Source of the DNA: Candidatus Tritonobacter lacicola
GTDB lineage: Bacteria; Auribacterota; Tritonobacteria; Tritonobacterales; Tritonobacteraceae
NCBI GenBank assembly: GCA_030765135.1
Contig: JAVCDC010000101.1
Coordinates: 1 to 64,000, forward strand
Direction: 5' to 3'
DNA: 64,000 nt
A program made the translations under genes and the position numbers. Below, piece by piece: positions 171-53,939 of this stretch (positions are counted from its first letter, which is position 1; each line of letters starts with the position of its first letter). The notes beneath the pieces were generated by a model. That model saw only the letters and a program-made list of their open reading frames with translations, searched no databases and was not told the origin of the DNA.

Positions 171-1199
171 ATGAAACGCTTCGCAAAAAACATGCCTTTA
201 TCTCTTTTTGTCATTCTCAGTTTCTCACTTGTATGCACTTCCACGATTCGAGCTGATACGCAGACCGACCCACTGCCCTCCTGGAATGAAGGTTCGACCA
301 AGCAGTCTATTGTGCGTTTCGTTGATCTCGTGACCAAAGAGGGAGGGAAGGGATACGTGCCCCCGGCCGAACGCATCGCAGTCTTCGACAACGATGGTAC
401 GCTCTGGGCCGAGAAGCCCATTGCCGTTGAGCTTGCTTTCACCCTGGATCGCGTCAAAGCGCTCGCGCCCAAGCATCCTGAGTGGAAGCAAAAGCAGCCT
501 TTCAAAGACGTTCTGGAAGGAGACTTGAAAAGCGTTCTTGCGGGCGGCGGCAAGACAATAAGTCAACTAGTGATGGCAACCAACACCGGCATGACGGTCG
601 CTGAGTTCGAACAGATCGTCTCAGATTGGATCGGCTCCGCGCGCAATCCGGTAACGAAGCGCCTCTACACGGAGATGGTCTATCAACCGATGCTCGAGTT
701 TCTGGCTTATCTGAGATCCAACGGCTTTAAGACCTATATAGTGTCCGGCGGCGGAATCGACTTCATGCGCCCCTGGACAGAAAACGTTTACGGTATCCCA
801 CCCGAGCAGGTCGTTGGTTCCTGCATCAAGGTAAAATACGAAATGCTCAAGAGCGGGCCGGTCCTGATGCTTCTCCCCGAGATGGACTTCATCGACGACA
901 AGGACGGCAAGCCGGTCGGAATTAACAGGTTCATCGGCCGTCGTCCTCTTCTCGCCTTCGGCAACTCTGACGGAGACCTTCAGATGCTCCAGTGGACTGC
1001 CGCCGGAAGCGGTTCACGTTTCATGGGACTGGTTCATCATACTGACGCCGAGAGAGAATGGGCCTATGATCGGAATGTATCACTCGGGCGCCTGGATAAG
1101 GCGCTCACAGAGGCGAAAGAAAAGGGCTGGACAGTCGTAGACATGAAAAAAGATTGGAAGGTCATCTTCCCAGTTCAGAGAAAGCAGGAAAAGAAATAA
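171..1199 (+). CDS. HAD-superfamily phosphatase, secreted (phosphoserine-phosphatase-like)
   Basis: Predicted haloacid-dehalogenase phosphohydrolase of 342 aa. The nucleophile motif FDNDGTLW, a later SGGG threonine/serine region and the GNSDGDLQML metal-binding motif are all present, in the order of phosphoserine-phosphatase-like HAD enzymes. I chose the ATG at 171 because it starts a normal signal peptide (MKRFAKN then a hydrophobic stretch ending near STIRA); the frame is open further upstream to position 15 but that extension looks non-coding. The enzyme therefore probably acts in the periplasm on an unknown phosphomonoester. An attC-like site starts 11 bp after the stop, so this gene may be the cargo of an integron cassette whose left end lies outside the window or has decayed. 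Confidence 0.85.
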   Translation: MKRFAKNMPLSLFVILSFSLVCTSTIRADTQTDPLPSWNEGSTKQSIVRFVDLVTKEGGKGYVPPAERIAVFDNDGTLWAEKPIAVELAFTLDRVKALAPKHPEWKQKQPFKDVLEGDLKSVLAGGGKTISQLVMATNTGMTVAEFEQIVSDWIGSARNPVTKRLYTEMVYQPMLEFLAYLRSNGFKTYIVSGGGIDFMRPWTENVYGIPPEQVVGSCIKVKYEMLKSGPVLMLLPEMDFIDDKDGKPVGINRFIGRRPLLAFGNSDGDLQMLQWTAAGSGSRFMGLVHHTDAEREWAYDRNVSLGRLDKALTEAKEKGWTVVDMKKDWKVIFPVQRKQEKK

Positions 1200-1209
1200 A
1201 TTGAACGCT

Positions 1210-1265
1210 AGCTAACCCGCCGCTCGAGCCGACGCGGTTCCCGCGGTCTCAGCTTTTCGTTAGCT
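1210..1265 (+). other. attC-like integron recombination site
   Basis: Directly after the HAD gene, AGCTAAC (1210-1216) and its exact complement GTTAGCT (1259-1265) enclose an imperfect hairpin. GCTCGAG on the left pairs with CTCAGC on the right leaving one unpaired C, and CGCGG pairs with CCGCG around a TTC loop. Two complementary core sites, unpaired spacers and a single extrahelical base on one arm are the structural hallmarks of integron attC sites; 56 bp is at the short end of the normal range. Confidence 0.75.
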
Positions 1266-1302
1266 GATTTTCAATCATCGATCACAAGAAAGGAGTATGA
1301 CG

Positions 1303-2835
1303 ATGAAACTACTCACCATGCTGAAATCATTCGGCTGCGCACTTGGCGGGATTGCTGTTTTCGCCGACCTGCCGGCGATGGCGAAAGAGAAGAAGCAGGA
1401 GAAACCCAATGTGGTATTCATCCTCGCCGATAACGTGGGCTACGGCGACATGGGTCCGTACGGTGGCGGAGAGCTTCGTGGAGCGCCGACGACGAACATT
1501 GATCGGCTCTCCCGCGAGGGTCTACGCTTAACACAGTATCTGGTGGAGCCCGCCTGCACACCATCGAGGGCGGCGCTGATGACCGGGCAATACTCGAACC
1601 GCAACGGCCTGTCGCTGGTCATCATGCCCGGTACCTCGAACACGCTCCCGGGCACGGCGTACACGATGGGGCAGTTGTTCAAGGGCGCAGGCTACGCCAC
1701 GGCCATCTATGGCAAATGGCACCTGGGCATCGCTCCGGAGAGCCTGCCGACGGCCCACGGATTCGACGAGTTCTACGGCCTCCCGCCCGACCTCACGTGG
1801 AACTGTTGCATTTCCCCCAGCACGATGGTGCTCACGCACTCGACTGACGAGTCACTCAGCGAGCTTCGTGAAGAGGGGCCGCATCTCTACGAGGCCGTTG
1901 CAAATGGTCCGTTGCGCAAGCTCAAACCGTACACGATGGAAGTTCGGCGCGAGATCGACTTTGAACTCACAAAGAAGGCCATCGACTTTATGGAGCGACA
2001 GACCGAGGCGGGCAAGCCGTTCTTCCTCTACCTGCCATTCTCGATGGGACATTATCCGAACCTCGCGTCGAAGCAGTTCGCGGGGAAGTCGCGGATCGGC
2101 CAGTATGGTGACAGGATGATGGAAGGCGACTACCACGTCGGCCAGATCCTCCAGGCACTGAAGGACCTCGAGATCGACGACAACACGCTTTTCGTCTTTG
2201 CCTCGGACAACGGGCCGCAAGGCGAGATCAATCGCGATCTGGGGAACCAGGGGACGCCGGACATGGGCAACACGGGTCCATTCCGGGGCGAGCTGGGCGA
2301 GGCAACCGAAGGCTCGATCCGAACATGTTGTTTCATCCGCTGGCCGGGCAAGGTCAAGCCGGGCACAACCTCGTATGCCATGTTCTCGATCATGGATTTC
2401 CTCCCGACCTTCGCCAATATCATTGGAGCCAAGATTCCGGACGACAGACCAATTGACGGCGTCGACCAGACCGACGTGCTGTTTGGCAAGAGCGAGGAGG
2501 GCGCGCGGGAGAGCCTGCTGACCTTCATCGGCGCGCACCTGGTGGCGGCGCGGTGGAAGCAATGGCGCATGTATTTCACCAACGTTCACCCGACCGGCCT
2601 CGGATTGCAGCGCATGGACGGCGTCCTCTCTGCCAGCGCGTCGTTGGCCTATCCGACGCTCTACAACATCGAAATGGACCCCCACGAGGATATTCAGGTC
2701 CCCGCCCAATTCCCCTGGGTCCAGGGGCTCGTCTTCAAGGAGATTGACAAGTACAAGGAGACCCTCAAGAAGTATCCGAACCCACCGCCGCCCAACATCA
2801 CGAAGATCCCGGCACCCGAACTCCAGAAGTTGTGA
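1303..2835 (+). CDS. Arylsulfatase, Cys-type (formylglycine-dependent), secreted
   Basis: Type I sulfatase of 510 aa with an N-terminal signal peptide. The core motif CTPSRAALMTG near residue 85 has the Cys that is oxidised to formylglycine; ADNVGYGD near residue 43 and SDNG further on supply metal ligands. The second Asp of the usual DD pair is Asn here, a variant I believe occurs in other sulfatases. An ATG at 1297 is only 1 nt from AGGAG (1291-1295), so the ATG at 1303 is the better start. The maturating enzyme is encoded 360 bp downstream. The gene is bracketed by GTTAGCTG (1259-1266) and its exact complement CAGCTAAC (2988-2995), the terminal signature of an integron cassette. Substrate unknown; sulfated polysaccharides or small sulfate esters are possible. 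Confidence 0.92.
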   Translation: MKLLTMLKSFGCALGGIAVFADLPAMAKEKKQEKPNVVFILADNVGYGDMGPYGGGELRGAPTTNIDRLSREGLRLTQYLVEPACTPSRAALMTGQYSNRNGLSLVIMPGTSNTLPGTAYTMGQLFKGAGYATAIYGKWHLGIAPESLPTAHGFDEFYGLPPDLTWNCCISPSTMVLTHSTDESLSELREEGPHLYEAVANGPLRKLKPYTMEVRREIDFELTKKAIDFMERQTEAGKPFFLYLPFSMGHYPNLASKQFAGKSRIGQYGDRMMEGDYHVGQILQALKDLEIDDNTLFVFASDNGPQGEINRDLGNQGTPDMGNTGPFRGELGEATEGSIRTCCFIRWPGKVKPGTTSYAMFSIMDFLPTFANIIGAKIPDDRPIDGVDQTDVLFGKSEEGARESLLTFIGAHLVAARWKQWRMYFTNVHPTGLGLQRMDGVLSASASLAYPTLYNIEMDPHEDIQVPAQFPWVQGLVFKEIDKYKETLKKYPNPPPPNITKIPAPELQKL

Positions 2836-3194
2836 GGGTATGTGGACTTCACAGTCCGGCTCCTGGGTCCGACAATGTGGCGTCTTGAAACGAGCCGTAC
2901 AGGGTTTCGGGTGCCGGCCGTCCTGTTTACCGCGAGGGCATTCACCGGTTAGGGAAAAGGCACAGACGTGGACAATTGCTGGCACGCCAGCTAACTATCC
3001 GTAGCATGCGGAGCTGCGGGCCGCGCGATTCAGGGAATAGGGAATAGAGAGGTCAAGAACACAGTTCCTATTCCCCATTCCCTACCCAATTCTCTATTTT
3101 CACTTCGTGCTCTTCGTGTCCTTCGTGGTTATATTCTCTCTTTTTCACTATAATGTGCTTTTAGGTGGGCTTTAATTCCAGACTCCCCATAGAT
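2836..3194. other. Spacer between sulfatase and maturase genes
   Basis: No gene seen. It holds CAGCTAAC at 2988-2995, which looks like the left core of a cassette attC whose right half is missing. Then follow AT-rich direct words (GGGAATAG) and an ACGAAG-type repeat at 3104-3132, which returns in inverted orientation at 4451-4469, just after the maturase gene. Confidence 0.6.
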
Positions 3195-4451
3195 ATGACC
3201 GATTACACAGAACAAAAACCTGCTCAGAAGCTCGTCGCCCATCTGATGGCCAAGCCGGCGGGACCGGACTGCAACCTCAACTGCGGCTACTGCTTCTACC
3301 TGGAGAAAGAAGCACTCTTCCCGGAAGGCGGCCGGTACCGGATGTCCGACGAGGTCCTGGAAACGTACATCCGGAAGACTGCGGAGTACCAGACCGTCCC
3401 CGAGCTTCTTTACGCCTGGCAGGGCGGCGAGCCGACACTGATGGGGATCGACTTCTTCAGGAAGGCGGTCGAACTGGAGAAACGGTACGCAGGAGGGAGG
3501 AGGATCGCAAACACGCTCCAGACCAACGGGATACTCATCGATGACGAGTGGTGCCGGTTTCTTGCCGAGAATAAATTTCTCGTGGGCCTCAGTCTCGACG
3601 GCCCGAAAGACGTCCATGACCGTTATCGGAAAGACCGGGGCGGCGAACCGACCTTCGACCGTGTCATGCGGGCCATGGATCTGTTGAAGAAACACGGGGT
3701 CGAGTTCAATATCCTCGCCTGCGTGACCCGGGAGTCAGCGAAGAGGCCGCTCGATGTCTACCGGTTTTTCAAGGAGCAGGGCGTCCGGTTCATCCAGTTG
3801 ATCCCTATCGTGGAACGGATGCCCGACACCGAGTCCGAACGGCTGGGGCTGAAGCTGGGCATGCCGGCATCCATCGATAATAGCGACGAACCGAACGTCA
3901 CCCCCTGGACTATGATCCCGGAAGACTACGGTGATTTCCTGATCGGCGTCTTCGACGAGTGGGTGAAGAATGATATCGGTTCCGTCTTCATCATGAACTT
4001 CGAGTGGTTCGTCGTTAACTGGATGGGGATGCTCCAGGCGAACTGCTTCTTCTCCGAGCGCTGCGGCCAGGCGGTCATCGTCGAGCACAACGGGGACGTC
4101 TACTCCTGCGATCACTTCGTCTACCCGAAATACCGTCTCGGGAACATCCTCGCCGGGGAACCGGGGGAGATGATCGACTCAGAAAAACAGCTCCGGTTCG
4201 GGGCGGTCAAGGAGGAGTCGCTCCCGAAGTACTGCCGGGAGTGCGACTTCCTCTTCGCCTGCCGGGGGGAGTGCCCCAAGCACCGTTTCCTGAAAACGCC
4301 GGACGGAGAGCCGGGACTGAACTACCTCTGTACCGGATATAAAAAATTCTTCAACCATGTCCGCCCCTACATGGACGCTATCGTCCAGACCATCCGGATG
4401 GGCTGCCCGGCGGAGAAGGTGATGGACCTGGTCCGGAAAGGGAAAATTTAA
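3195..4451 (+). CDS. Anaerobic sulfatase-maturating enzyme (radical SAM, SPASM domain)
   Basis: Radical SAM enzyme of 418 aa that oxidises the active-site Cys (or Ser) of sulfatases to formylglycine without oxygen. CNLNCGYCFY near residue 25 is the CxxxCxxC ligand set for the SAM-binding cluster. The C-terminal half has the SPASM-type cysteines (CGQAV, YSCDHF, CRECDFLFACRGECPKHR) that bind two auxiliary clusters. ATG 3195 is taken as the start; GTG 3165 is an in-frame alternative but adds no recognised sequence. Its obvious client is the CTPSR sulfatase just upstream, same strand. The gene is flanked by inverted copies of an ACGAAG-rich repeat (3114-3132 and 4451-4469), so it may have moved separately from the sulfatase. 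Confidence 0.93.
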   Translation: MTDYTEQKPAQKLVAHLMAKPAGPDCNLNCGYCFYLEKEALFPEGGRYRMSDEVLETYIRKTAEYQTVPELLYAWQGGEPTLMGIDFFRKAVELEKRYAGGRRIANTLQTNGILIDDEWCRFLAENKFLVGLSLDGPKDVHDRYRKDRGGEPTFDRVMRAMDLLKKHGVEFNILACVTRESAKRPLDVYRFFKEQGVRFIQLIPIVERMPDTESERLGLKLGMPASIDNSDEPNVTPWTMIPEDYGDFLIGVFDEWVKNDIGSVFIMNFEWFVVNWMGMLQANCFFSERCGQAVIVEHNGDVYSCDHFVYPKYRLGNILAGEPGEMIDSEKQLRFGAVKEESLPKYCRECDFLFACRGECPKHRFLKTPDGEPGLNYLCTGYKKFFNHVRPYMDAIVQTIRMGCPAEKVMDLVRKGKI

Positions 4452-30110: not shown

Positions 30111-30409
30111 GGTTCTTCTCCAATTCAGTTGAAGGTGAACACTGGAATACCTGTTATAAACAATACCCTCTCCCCCCAATTTTTGGGGGGAGAGGGAAGG
30201 GTGAGGGGGGGATATATAGAATGGTTGTATTACCCCTCACCCTGCCCTCTCCCCTAAAAGGGGAGAGGGAATAATTTGTAAGCTCACGGTAGTAGTTGAA
30301 TCAATCGTTACACGATACGATGGATGTCATAATTGTTTTCATCTGCTTGATGCATAATAAGGTACGTTATGTAACATGATTTCATTGCCAACTTAAATGG
30401 AGAAGAACC
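30111..30409. mobile_element. MITE, 299 bp, copy 1, with 8-bp target duplication
   Basis: Terminal inverted repeats GGTTCTTCTCC... and ...GGAGAAGAACC, about 21 bp with two mismatches on the right. The direct repeat GAAACAAG flanks both sides (30103-30110 and 30410-30417), the signature of transposition with 8-bp target duplication. The interior has CCTCTCCCCCC hairpins and AT-rich arms but no open reading frame. It is nearly identical to 52355-52653. The GG..TCTTC ends and 8-bp duplication recall ISL3-family elements; that assignment is from memory. No transposase is in the window. Confidence 0.93.
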
Positions 30410-49190: not shown

Positions 49191-50276
49191 ATGTCTACCG
49201 TAACACTCAAGAACGTCACCAAGGTCTTCGGCGATTCCGTCGTCGCGGTTGACAACGTCAGCCTCGAGGTCGAGGACGGGGAGTTCATGATACTCGTCGG
49301 CCCCTCCGGATGCGGTAAGTCGACGACTTTGAGGATCATCGCCGGCCTCGAGACCGCTACGGGGGGAGATATATACATCGGCGGCCGCCTGGTCAACGAT
49401 GTCCTTCCGAAGGACAGGGACATAGCCATGGTCTTCCAGAACTACGCCCTCTATCCCCATATGACCGCCTACGCGAACATGGCTTTCGGCCTCAAGCTGC
49501 GGGGCGTCCAGAAAAAGGAGATCGACGAGCGCGTGAAGGAGGCCGCCGAGATACTTAATATCGGGGAGCTCCTCGACCGGAAGCCGCGCGAGCTATCCGG
49601 CGGACAGAGCCAGAGAGTAGCGGTGGGCAGGGCGATCGTGAGGAAGCCCAAGGTCTTCCTATTCGACGAGCCGCTGAGCAACCTCGACCTGAAGCTGAGG
49701 GTCCAGATGAGGGCCGAGTTCAGCAAGATTCACAACAAATTGGGCGCCACCATGATCTATGTCACCCACGACCAGACGGAGGCCATGACGATGGGGGACC
49801 GGATCGCGGTGATGAGGGAAGGCGGTATCCGTCAACTGGCCGACCCGGGCGCGCTCTATCAAAGCCCGGCCAACCGGTTCGTGGCGCAGTTCATAGGCAT
49901 TCCTCCGATGAACATGATCGACGGGGTGATAGCGGAAGAGGGGGGTGCTCTTCTCTTCAAGGGGGATTCCTGCCGTGTGACTGTTCCGGACGGCAAGGGC
50001 GATCTCCTGCGGCCGTTCCTCGAAAAAAAGGTAACCATGGGCGTGAGGCCCGAGGACGTGAGCGTTTCGGAGGGGAAGGGAATGGCGGAGGCGGTGGTCG
50101 ATGTCGTCCAGCCGCTTGGCCCGCAGAAGTTCCTCTACCTGAAGATGGGTGACTGTGAATACACGGCAAGGGTTCCCGTGGAGACGAAGGCCAGGGTTAA
50201 CGATACGGTCGCTATCGTGTTCGACATGGAGAAGGTCCATTTCTTCGATGACGCGACGGACAGGGCCATTGTGTAG
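49191..50276 (+). CDS. Sugar ABC transporter ATPase (MalK/UgpC type)
   Basis: 361 aa. Walker A GPSGCGKST, signature LSGGQSQRVAVGRA, Walker B VFLFDEPLSNLD and switch His in YVTHDQTEAM are intact, followed by the C-terminal regulatory OB-type (TOBE) domain with MGVRPEDVSV. This layout powers binding-protein-dependent uptake of sugars or glycerol phosphate. The two permease genes follow after a 180-bp spacer full of GTGTAACGT words, and the binding protein comes last. Confidence 0.95.
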   Translation: MSTVTLKNVTKVFGDSVVAVDNVSLEVEDGEFMILVGPSGCGKSTTLRIIAGLETATGGDIYIGGRLVNDVLPKDRDIAMVFQNYALYPHMTAYANMAFGLKLRGVQKKEIDERVKEAAEILNIGELLDRKPRELSGGQSQRVAVGRAIVRKPKVFLFDEPLSNLDLKLRVQMRAEFSKIHNKLGATMIYVTHDQTEAMTMGDRIAVMREGGIRQLADPGALYQSPANRFVAQFIGIPPMNMIDGVIAEEGGALLFKGDSCRVTVPDGKGDLLRPFLEKKVTMGVRPEDVSVSEGKGMAEAVVDVVQPLGPQKFLYLKMGDCEYTARVPVETKARVNDTVAIVFDMEKVHFFDDATDRAIV

Positions 50277-50457: not shown

Positions 50458-51351
50458 ATGCAGACAACCGCCTCAAGCAGGTCGAAGCGCCTCGCCATCA
50501 CACCGTACCTCTATCTCCTCCCGGCGTTCGTTGTCATATTGACCTTCCAGGTCCTTCCCATTTTTTATTCCCTTTTCGTAAGCTTTTTCGAGTGGGACAT
50601 AATCAGGGCCCGGAGGTTCGTCGGCCTGGGGAACTACCTGGATCTATTTCGCGATGTCGAGTTCTGGCAGGCACTCTTTAACACCACCGTGTTCGCCGCA
50701 GGCTCCGTCGTCTTCGGCCTGGCCATCTCGCTTTTTATAGCCGTACTGCTCAGCAGGAAGATAGCCGGCCTTAACTGTTACAGGCTGGCTTATTTTATTC
50801 CCTACGTCACGGCGATGACGGCCGTGGCAATAGTGTGGAAGTGGCTTTTCAACCCCCAGTTCGGCCTCCTGAACTACCTCCTCTCACTGGTCGGCCTCCC
50901 CGGTACCAGGTGGCTCCAGGACCCCTTCTGGGCGAGGGTCGCCGTGATTATATTTGTCATATGGAAGACGATGGGGTTCAATATCCTGATATTCCTGACG
51001 CGTCTCCTTGATATAGATAAGACCTTTTACGAGGCGGCCGAGATCGACGGGGCGGGCCCGTGGAGGCTATTCAGGTATATCACATGGCCCCTCCTCGGTC
51101 CCACGACGCTCTTCCTCCTGATAATCTCCACGATATTCTCGTTCCAGATGTTCGTCCCCGTGTACATCATGACCCCGGACGGGGGGCCGGCGAACAGCTG
51201 CTCGACGATGGTCTTCTTCCTTTACGAGAACGCGTACGTTGATTTCCGAATGGGGTACGCCTGCTCCATAGCTTACGTTCTCTTCTTCATTATACTGGCG
51301 CTCACGCTAATCCAGAGGAAAGCCCTGGGGAGGAAATTGAGTGGCCTGTAA
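50458..51351 (+). CDS. Sugar ABC transporter permease (MalF/UgpA type)
   Basis: 297 aa, six hydrophobic segments. The permease EAA loop reads FYEAAEIDGAGPWRLFRYIT (EAAxxDGA), the contact for the ATPase. N-terminal PYLYLLPAFVVILTFQVLPI is typical of MalF/UgpA-like subunits of this size. It overlaps the next permease gene by 11 bp, so both are produced together and form the heterodimeric channel. Confidence 0.95.
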   Translation: MQTTASSRSKRLAITPYLYLLPAFVVILTFQVLPIFYSLFVSFFEWDIIRARRFVGLGNYLDLFRDVEFWQALFNTTVFAAGSVVFGLAISLFIAVLLSRKIAGLNCYRLAYFIPYVTAMTAVAIVWKWLFNPQFGLLNYLLSLVGLPGTRWLQDPFWARVAVIIFVIWKTMGFNILIFLTRLLDIDKTFYEAAEIDGAGPWRLFRYITWPLLGPTTLFLLIISTIFSFQMFVPVYIMTPDGGPANSCSTMVFFLYENAYVDFRMGYACSIAYVLFFIILALTLIQRKALGRKLSGL

Positions 51352-52318
51352 TCCGAAAAGAGCGATCGGGCGGCTGCTCATGCACGTCACCCTTCTTGCT
51401 GTTGCCGTTGTAATGATCGCGCCCCTGCTGTGGATGCTGATCACGTCCGTCAAATCGCCCCTGGAGGCATATGACTTCCCGCCTTCCTTTATCCCCGCCC
51501 TTAAGACCTACGTCGAGCATGGCGGCGAGCTTCACCAGGCGGATTTCCTTTCGCTGCGGGGCGGCACAGCGGAGGTCCGGGTTCTGGCGGGGCGGCATAA
51601 AGGGTTGCGTCTTTCCGTGCCGGAGGAGACCTTGATAAGAAAGCGTTTCATCTGGCGCAACTATGCCGACGCGTGGAGGGCCGCTCCCTTCGCGCGGTAC
51701 TTCGTCAACACGATCGTCATGGCGGGCCTGACCACCATCGGGCAGGTAATAACGTCGGCCCTCGCGGCCTACGCGTTTGCCAGGATGAGGTTCCGGGGCA
51801 AGGAGGTTATCTTCATTATCCTATTGGGGACGATGATGGTCCCCAAGCAGGTCCTTCTCATCCCCAACTACATCTTCCTGTCGAGGCTCGGCTGGATCAA
51901 CACGTATTACGCGCTCATCGTCCCATGGATCGCTGCAGTCTTCGGCATCTATTTCATGAGGCAGCACTTCGAGACCATCCCCCAGGACCTCTTCGATGCC
52001 GCTGCCATAGACGGCTGCAGCCGGTTCCGGGCGCTCTTCAATATCGCGATCCCTCTCTCTAAGGGGGTTATTGTCATGACAGCCCTCTTCACGTTTATCA
52101 TGACCTGGAACTCACTACTCTGGCCGTTGATCGTTACCAACAGCCCCGAGATGAGGCCCCTCCAGGTGGGGCTGGCCTATTTCTCCCAGGAGAGCAGCAC
52201 CGAGTGGACGCTCCTAATGGCCGCGTCGACCTTCACGATAGCTCCTTTGCTCGTGCTCTTCTTCATCGCCCAGAGGCGCATTATCGAGGGATTCGCGAGA
52301 TCGGGGCTCAAGGGATAA
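51341..52318 (+). CDS. Sugar ABC transporter permease (MalG/UgpE type)
   Basis: 325 aa, GTG start with GGGGAGG upstream, overlapping the previous gene. Six hydrophobic segments, EAA-loop equivalent LFDAAAIDGCSRFRALFNIA, and the C-terminal end RRIIEGFARSGLKG typical of MalG-type subunits. The loop between helices 1 and 2 is enlarged by about 50 aa (YVEHGGELHQADFLSLRGGT), which may fold as a small extra domain facing the periplasm. The last gene of the transporter begins only after the MITE. Confidence 0.93.
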   Translation: MACNPKRAIGRLLMHVTLLAVAVVMIAPLLWMLITSVKSPLEAYDFPPSFIPALKTYVEHGGELHQADFLSLRGGTAEVRVLAGRHKGLRLSVPEETLIRKRFIWRNYADAWRAAPFARYFVNTIVMAGLTTIGQVITSALAAYAFARMRFRGKEVIFIILLGTMMVPKQVLLIPNYIFLSRLGWINTYYALIVPWIAAVFGIYFMRQHFETIPQDLFDAAAIDGCSRFRALFNIAIPLSKGVIVMTALFTFIMTWNSLLWPLIVTNSPEMRPLQVGLAYFSQESSTEWTLLMAASTFTIAPLLVLFFIAQRRIIEGFARSGLKG

Positions 52319-52354
52319 GCTTACGACGGTTCCAAGTCGAAAGTTAAAAAGATG

Positions 52355-52653
52355 GGTTCTTCTCCAATTCAGTTGAAGGTAAACACTGGAATACCTGTTA
52401 TAAATAATACCCTCTCCCCCCAATTTTTGGGGGGAGAGGGAAGGGTGAGGGGGGTAATATATATAATGGTTGTATTACCCCTCACCCTGCCCTCTCCCCT
52501 AAAAGGGGAGAGGGAGTAATTTGTAACGCATCGTTAGTAGTTGAATCAATCGTTGCACAATATAATGGATGTCATATTGATTTCATCTACTTGCCGCATA
52601 ATAAGATGCGTTATGTAGTGTGATTTCATTGCCAACTGAATTGGAGAAGAACC
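52355..52653. mobile_element. MITE, 299 bp, copy 2, inserted at a start codon
   Basis: Perfect 21-bp terminal inverted repeats (GGTTCTTCTCC... / ...GGAGAAGAACC). The target duplication AAAAGATG is at 52347-52354 and 52654-52661. It has the same length as copy 1 and nearly the same sequence, including the CCTCTCCCC hairpins. The right duplication contains the ATG of the next gene, and the GGAG of the right terminus lies 12 nt before that ATG. Confidence 0.95.
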
Positions 52654-52658
52654 AAAAG

Positions 52659-53939
52659 ATGAAAAAGGTTCTCATACTAGCTCTGGTATCTGTATGCATG
52701 GCGCTCTGCGGGTGCTCGCGGCAGGGAGAGGACGAGGCAGACGGCCGCGTCGTCGTCCGGTTCTGGCACGCGATGGGAGGGCCCCTGGGCGATATCCTCG
52801 ACGAGATGATAGACGAGTTCAATGCCGCGCACCCGGCCTGGCACATAAAGTCCGAGTCGATGGGGACTTATAATTCCCTCAGTCAGAAGATACTGGCGTC
52901 GATCATAGCGAGGAACCAGCCGACCATGGCCCAGGCGTACGAGTCGTGGATATCACGGCTTATAGAGGCGGAGAAAGGCTCGGCTATAGCCGACATGACG
53001 GACATGGACGGCGGCCGCAGTATGATCACATCGGGAGATATCTATAACGTCCTGATAGCGGACAGCACCTACGGGGGGAGGCTGATGTCCCTGCCGTTTA
53101 ACAAGAGTGTTCCCGTTATCTACTACAACAAGGAGCTTTTCCGCGATGCCGGCCTTGACCCGGAGAAACCTCCTTCCACGTGGGAGGAGTTCATGGAGGT
53201 CTCGAAGAAGTTAACGGTCGATCTTGACGGGGACGGCAAGGTTGACCGGTGGGGCCACATGTTCAGCGACCAGGCGACGTATTTCGAGTGTCTCCTTGGA
53301 CAGAACGGGGGACGGCTGCTTTCCCCCGGGGGAGACAGGGTGCTCTTCAACTCCCCGGAGGGCGTGGAGGCACTCACGTATCTCGTCGACCTCGTCCATA
53401 AGCACAAGGGCGCGGATTTCTATCTGGGCGGCTACCAGCACCAGGTGGACTGGATGGGGGGGAAGGTGGGGATGATCTTCGCCTCGTGCGTCTCCAAGAC
53501 GTTCATGCGGGACCAGATCAAGTTCGACTGGGGTATCGCCCCCCTGCCAAGTGGGAGGAAGAAGTCCGTACTCATCTATGGAACCAACATCGTCATCTTC
53601 TCGGCTGCTCCCCCTGATAAGCAGAGAGTGGCGTGGGAGTTCATCAGGTGGTTCACGGACACAGAACAGACTGCGCGCTGGTCGATGGAGACGAACTACA
53701 TGCCGGTTAGAAAATCCGCTCTCGCCACGGGGAAGATGGTCGGGCATTTCAAGGAGGACAAGGACGCGCTTGTTTCTGTTAAAGAGCTCGAGTACACCTT
53801 CTTCGAGCCCAGGTTGCCGAACTGGCTCGAGTGCCGGAGGTTCCTGGGTGATGCCGTCAAGGACGCCCTTTTGCGCAAGCGGAGCCCGGAAGAAGCCCTG
53901 GATCGCGCCGCAGCCAGGTGCGACCGCCTCCTTAAATAA
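52659..53939 (+). CDS. Sugar-binding lipoprotein (ABC transporter, family 1)
   Basis: 426 aa from ATG 52659. MKKVLILALVSVCMALCGC is a lipoprotein signal with lipobox Cys19, then the extracellular solute-binding family 1 fold: VVRFWHAMGGPLGDILDEMI, LPFNKSVPVIYYNKELFRDAG, PPSTWEEFMEVSKKL, a DLDGDGKVDRWG calcium-type loop, and YGTNIVIFSAAPPDKQRVAW. The closest known type is UgpB/MalE-like. It is the cognate partner of the upstream ATPase and permeases. The MITE at 52355-52653 has replaced its original leader, and ribosome binding must now use MITE sequence. ATG use at an earlier GTG (52620, inside the MITE) is unlikely. Confidence 0.93.
   Translation: MKKVLILALVSVCMALCGCSRQGEDEADGRVVVRFWHAMGGPLGDILDEMIDEFNAAHPAWHIKSESMGTYNSLSQKILASIIARNQPTMAQAYESWISRLIEAEKGSAIADMTDMDGGRSMITSGDIYNVLIADSTYGGRLMSLPFNKSVPVIYYNKELFRDAGLDPEKPPSTWEEFMEVSKKLTVDLDGDGKVDRWGHMFSDQATYFECLLGQNGGRLLSPGGDRVLFNSPEGVEALTYLVDLVHKHKGADFYLGGYQHQVDWMGGKVGMIFASCVSKTFMRDQIKFDWGIAPLPSGRKKSVLIYGTNIVIFSAAPPDKQRVAWEFIRWFTDTEQTARWSMETNYMPVRKSALATGKMVGHFKEDKDALVSVKELEYTFFEPRLPNWLECRRFLGDAVKDALLRKRSPEEALDRAAARCDRLLK

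Follow-up and report, generated by a model that had tools for sequence, protein, structure and literature searches.

Bacterial MITEs are already known to alter the genes beside which they insert (PMC6382973; PMC10969869), and the event described here is of that ordinary kind. MITEAba12 has a preference for AT-rich sites, and a neighbouring gene can take its start codon and initial residues from an end of the element (PMC6382973). Correia elements have TIRs that are cut in mRNA by RNase III (PMC10969869). Structure between the genes of an ABC operon can also matter, as intercistronic structure sets the levels of malE versus malFG (PMC5927463). Among insertion sequences, the ISL3-type Tn7546 has the inverted repeat GGGTCTTCGGA and an 8-bp target duplication, AAAATAAG (PMC9782665).

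The locus studied here belongs to an ABC sugar-uptake cluster in the window, by which we mean the whole stretch of 64,000 nucleotides that was analyzed. A MalK-like ATPase gene (49191-50276) is followed by two BPD_transp_1 permease genes, the first at 50458-51351 and the second at 51341-52318 on the forward strand (stop codon TAA at 52316-52318), and then by the gene for a solute-binding lipoprotein (MKKVLILALVSVCMALCGC...; 52659-53939, forward strand), which comes last. This binding-protein gene is intact and encodes 426 aa with Pfam domains SBP_bac_8 / SBP_bac_1 (E value of 3e-39 for SBP_bac_8). Between it and the second permease gene lies a MITE of 299 bp (52355-52653, forward strand), classed below as a non-autonomous ISL3-type element. 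Its left TIR, GGTTCTTCTCCAATTCAGTTG (52355-52375, forward strand), and its right TIR (52633-52653, reverse strand) are complementary at 21 of 21 nt (100%), and with up to three mismatches allowed this TIR occurs four times in the window versus 0.00 expected. The element is short and non-coding, the ORF listing of its 299 bp containing no frame of at least 80 aa, and it is accompanied by a duplicated target and by some ten relatives in the genome, copies and fragments counted together.

The MITE inserted in an A-rich 8-mer, AAAAGATG, within which the binding-protein gene has its start codon. One copy of the target now stands to the left of the element (52347-52354) and the other to its right (52654-52661), both on the forward strand, and the last three bases of the right copy are the ATG at 52659-52661; the codon was thus duplicated and the protein left unchanged. 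An initial annotation of this DNA had described a MITE whose target duplication includes the ATG, and both the description and its coordinates are confirmed by the perfect 21-bp TIRs and by AAAAGATG on either side. The hairpins that it placed between the permease and binding-protein genes are likewise present, as two GC-rich structures on the forward strand, CCCTCTCCCCCCAA/TTGGGGGGAGAGGG at 52410-52440 and CCCTCTCCCC/GGGGAGAGGG at 52490-52514, the second without a proper T-run after it. The native intergenic leader (52319-52346, forward strand), which together with AAAAG makes up the spacer of the empty site, was indeed moved away from the gene, although by 307 bp (299 + 8) rather than the 299 bp given at first. 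The distance from the permease gene to the ATG thereby rose tenfold, from 33 nt in the inferred empty site to 340 nt.

Five genomes of the phylum encode homologues of the binding protein (58-62% identity), and all of these start at the corresponding methionine, ahead of the lipoprotein signal. None of the five has the MITE at the homologous site, and the element itself was not found among 43 other genomes of the phylum. In these homologues 13, 14, 41, 45 and 107 nt separate the permease stop from the gene, and the 33-nt spacer of the empty site, rebuilt by removing the element and one duplication, falls inside this range. An in-frame GTG within the MITE, at 52620, would extend the protein by 13 residues; sequence inspection found no Shine-Dalgarno sequence ahead of it. 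Because the five homologues agree, and no different upstream start is used by these MITE-free relatives, the present start codon is, judged by homology, the native one, preserved through the insertion as originally proposed.

We then asked whether an ATG is special as a target. Over 122 TIR ends, the adjoining 8-mers have a mean GC content of 13%, versus 45% in the loci. An ATG that opens a frame of at least 100 aa occurs in the 8 nt of flank next to the TIR at 2 of 114 other TIR ends, compared with 1.8 ± 1.1 at random AT-rich control positions. Exact landing on an ATG is therefore at chance level given the preference for AT-rich targets, and targeting of start codons by the element is rejected; choice of site would follow from AT-richness and not from the start codon. 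Outward gene starts within 40 nt of TIR ends are about twofold more numerous than in the control (22 versus 11.3 ± 3.2), an excess to be anticipated if the insertions that survive are intergenic. The two ends with an ATG in the first 8 nt of flank adjoin dprA (L077, 362) and a gene for an MGDG-synthase-like glycosyltransferase (L080, 1670), and both share the geometry of the present locus, with GGAG 11 nt before the ATG.

The MITE has ten matches in the host genome at E≤1e-20, and three other copies are near full length. One of these, a second full-length copy, lies at 30111-30409 of the window between two membrane-protein genes; it is 91% identical and has the target duplication GAAACAAG. The further near-full copies are on contigs C83 and C67, shorter ones are on C118 and C103, and there are many fragments. 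The duplications of the other complete copies, GAAACAAG, TAACTTAT and AAACATAA, are also 8 bp long and AT-rich. With TIRs and duplication both perfect, the copy at the start codon is probably among the more recent ones. A 145-bp copy lies directly upstream of a desulfoferrodoxin-like gene (L013, G000:C118, about 253-397), where its duplication, AAACATAA, adjoins a native AAGGAGG site. In three copies (L018, L019 and L020, on C56, C39 and C103, respectively) the interior palindrome is swapped for, or joined to, another dispersed repeat (CCTTCGACTTCGCTCAGGACAAG...), which suggests that the interiors of these elements are modular. The interior hairpins are of the same kind as the REP-like CCCTCACCCTnCCCTCTCCC palindromes of the host genome, but in the MITE they sit within an element bounded by TIRs and a target duplication. 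Free-standing copies occur as well, for example on contig C44 (L021, G000:C44, about 980-3760), which carries several CCCTCTCCCC/GGGTGAGGGG palindromes without TIRs, the same REP-like module that the MITE has inside it.

Among public genome contigs, at least 115 stretches carry the TIR GGNTCTTCTCCAAWWYAGTTG, mainly from Desulfobacterota (‘Deltaproteobacteria’) and also from Nitrospirota, Acetothermia, Zixibacteria, Firmicutes and others. No transposase recurred at these public loci, where most elements are incomplete and contig ends often fall inside the element, and we therefore searched directly for the ISL3 transposase domain PF01610 in genomes carrying the TIR. An intact ISL3 transposase of 400 aa lies between such TIRs at one locus (L170, 67-1412). 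A second locus (L176, 1466-2809) holds a complete element of 1344 bp with near-identical TIRs and a perfect 8-bp target duplication, AAAATTGT, in which the DDE_Tnp_ISL3 reading frame is broken in two, and other elements with an ISL3 transposase between such TIRs were found besides these. Since ISL3-family insertion sequences of other bacteria end in this same TIR, and the target duplication is 8 bp, the MITE is by its ends a non-autonomous ISL3-type element. It shares with that family a TIR that starts GGNTCTTCTCC and an AT-rich 8-bp duplication, and differs in that its 299 bp hold no transposase. The host genome contains only a fragment of PF01610 (C52, L047), which was not accepted as an autonomous partner, having no matching TIR. 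Such a partner would be expected of an active MITE but does not define the type; the assembly is a draft of 148 contigs, 94% complete, from which an insertion sequence could be missing.

How might the element affect the gene? The right TIR carries GGAGAAG on the forward strand (52643-52649), and pairing with the anti-Shine-Dalgarno sequence improves from +0.1 kcal/mol at the empty site to -6.4 kcal/mol with the MITE. The initial annotation was thus right that the right end of the element holds a ribosome-binding motif, but at +0.1 kcal/mol the empty site had no native one to be replaced, and the ATPase and first permease genes likewise have no Shine-Dalgarno sequence at their first ATGs. The 12-nt spacing given in that annotation is true of GGAG; measured from the end of the full GGAGAAG, the ATG is 9 nt away. 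Folding predictions for read-through mRNA have GGAGAAG fully paired with the left TIR. By equilibrium folding of long mRNA, which ignores co-transcriptional folding and ribosomes, opening positions -16 to -1 costs about 20-22 kcal/mol with the MITE in every context tested, versus 6.5-7 kcal/mol at the empty site. The cost is 6.6 kcal/mol with the left TIR deleted and 6.1-6.9 kcal/mol with it shuffled, and it is still 18-22 kcal/mol in 11 of 12 trials in which the interior was shuffled and the TIRs kept. The functional claim of the initial annotation thus holds only in part and is revised to one in which the binding site would be masked, and not supplied, in read-through mRNA.

Because the predicted block is abolished by deleting or shuffling the left TIR and mostly survives shuffling of the interior, we propose, with about even confidence, that this non-autonomous ISL3-type insertion on an ATG acts mainly as a translational insulator of the binding-protein gene. 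Its likeliest effect is probably to insulate translation of the binding protein from read-through mRNA. On the polycistronic transcript, pairing of the two TIRs would give a 21-bp stem that stops 5 nt short of the ATG, the stem would hide the only Shine-Dalgarno-like sequence, the close spacing to the permease gene would be broken (33 to 340 nt), and output of the binding protein would be lowered. Relief may come when RNase III, for which the host genome has a gene, cuts the stem or when transcription starts inside the MITE; hidden as it is in read-through mRNA, GGAGAAG could serve only after such cleavage or from an internal start.

A neutral or nearly neutral insertion, with the ATG and its A-rich spacer kept and initiation going on independently of a Shine-Dalgarno sequence, is possible but rather unlikely. 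The native site was also without a Shine-Dalgarno sequence, and such initiation could continue. The intact gene and the chance-level landing on ATGs elsewhere agree with little effect of the MITE, as does the cost of opening the ATG alone, about 1 kcal/mol whether the element is there or not, with the AAAA before it predicted to be unpaired. However, the stem falls within the ribosome footprint, where opening -20 to +13 is predicted to cost about 27 kcal/mol with the MITE versus 11 kcal/mol without, and the tenfold greater distance from the permease gene also speaks against neutrality.

It is improbable that the MITE gave the gene a functional ribosome-binding site in GGAGAAG and, through this site and the hairpins together, changed how much binding protein is made per channel. 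Besides the improved anti-Shine-Dalgarno pairing, this model can draw on transcripts starting inside the MITE, for which the predicted opening cost falls to about 6.5-7 kcal/mol and GGAGAAG becomes partly accessible. Yet no convincing internal sigma70 promoter was found in the element, only a 9-of-12 sigma70-like match on the forward strand (two matches over both strands versus 0.7 expected), the motif is predicted to be sequestered in read-through mRNA, and the 12-nt gap between GGAG and ATG is long. A scan for intrinsic terminators returned one weak forward-strand match (tail AGTAATTTGT; chance alone would give 0.6 on the two strands), and in Rfam nothing scored above gathering for the MITE, with only sub-threshold look-alikes of miRNA-like hairpins. 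Least probable is that the stem and GC-rich hairpins act both as a target of RNase III and as a structure that protects 3' ends, splitting a stable permease message from the binding-protein message, which would accord with the RNA fold z-score of -12, the RNase III gene in the host genome and the Correia and malE-malF precedents, but the gene order, with the binding protein last, is unlike that of mal.

Returning to the insulator, a wider form of it would have ISL3-type TIRs in general carry an outward GGAGAAG that the opposite TIR masks in read-through mRNA and that cleavage or a transcription start inside the element exposes, so that translation of adjoining genes would be insulated or switched by the ends themselves; we regard this extension as unlikely. 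The locus offers a clean example from nature of how a mobile element can part a start codon from its operon and leave the protein unchanged, and it links a broadly distributed TIR to ISL3 elements. The computed prediction that the TIR stem hides the only Shine-Dalgarno-like sequence is testable with a few reporter constructs.

Compared with known systems, the MITE resembles the malE-malF intercistronic structure of E. coli in that an RNA structure separates the binding-protein gene of an ABC operon from a permease gene (PMC5927463), and differs from it in the reversed gene order and the mobile-element origin. With MITEAba12 and Correia elements it shares a short length, TIRs, a duplicated target and a stable RNA fold, whereas their TIR sequences and IS families are different. 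In contrast to both, the present MITE has the host's own start codon in its target duplication, and a TIR with a Shine-Dalgarno-like sequence that is predicted to be hidden by the partner TIR.
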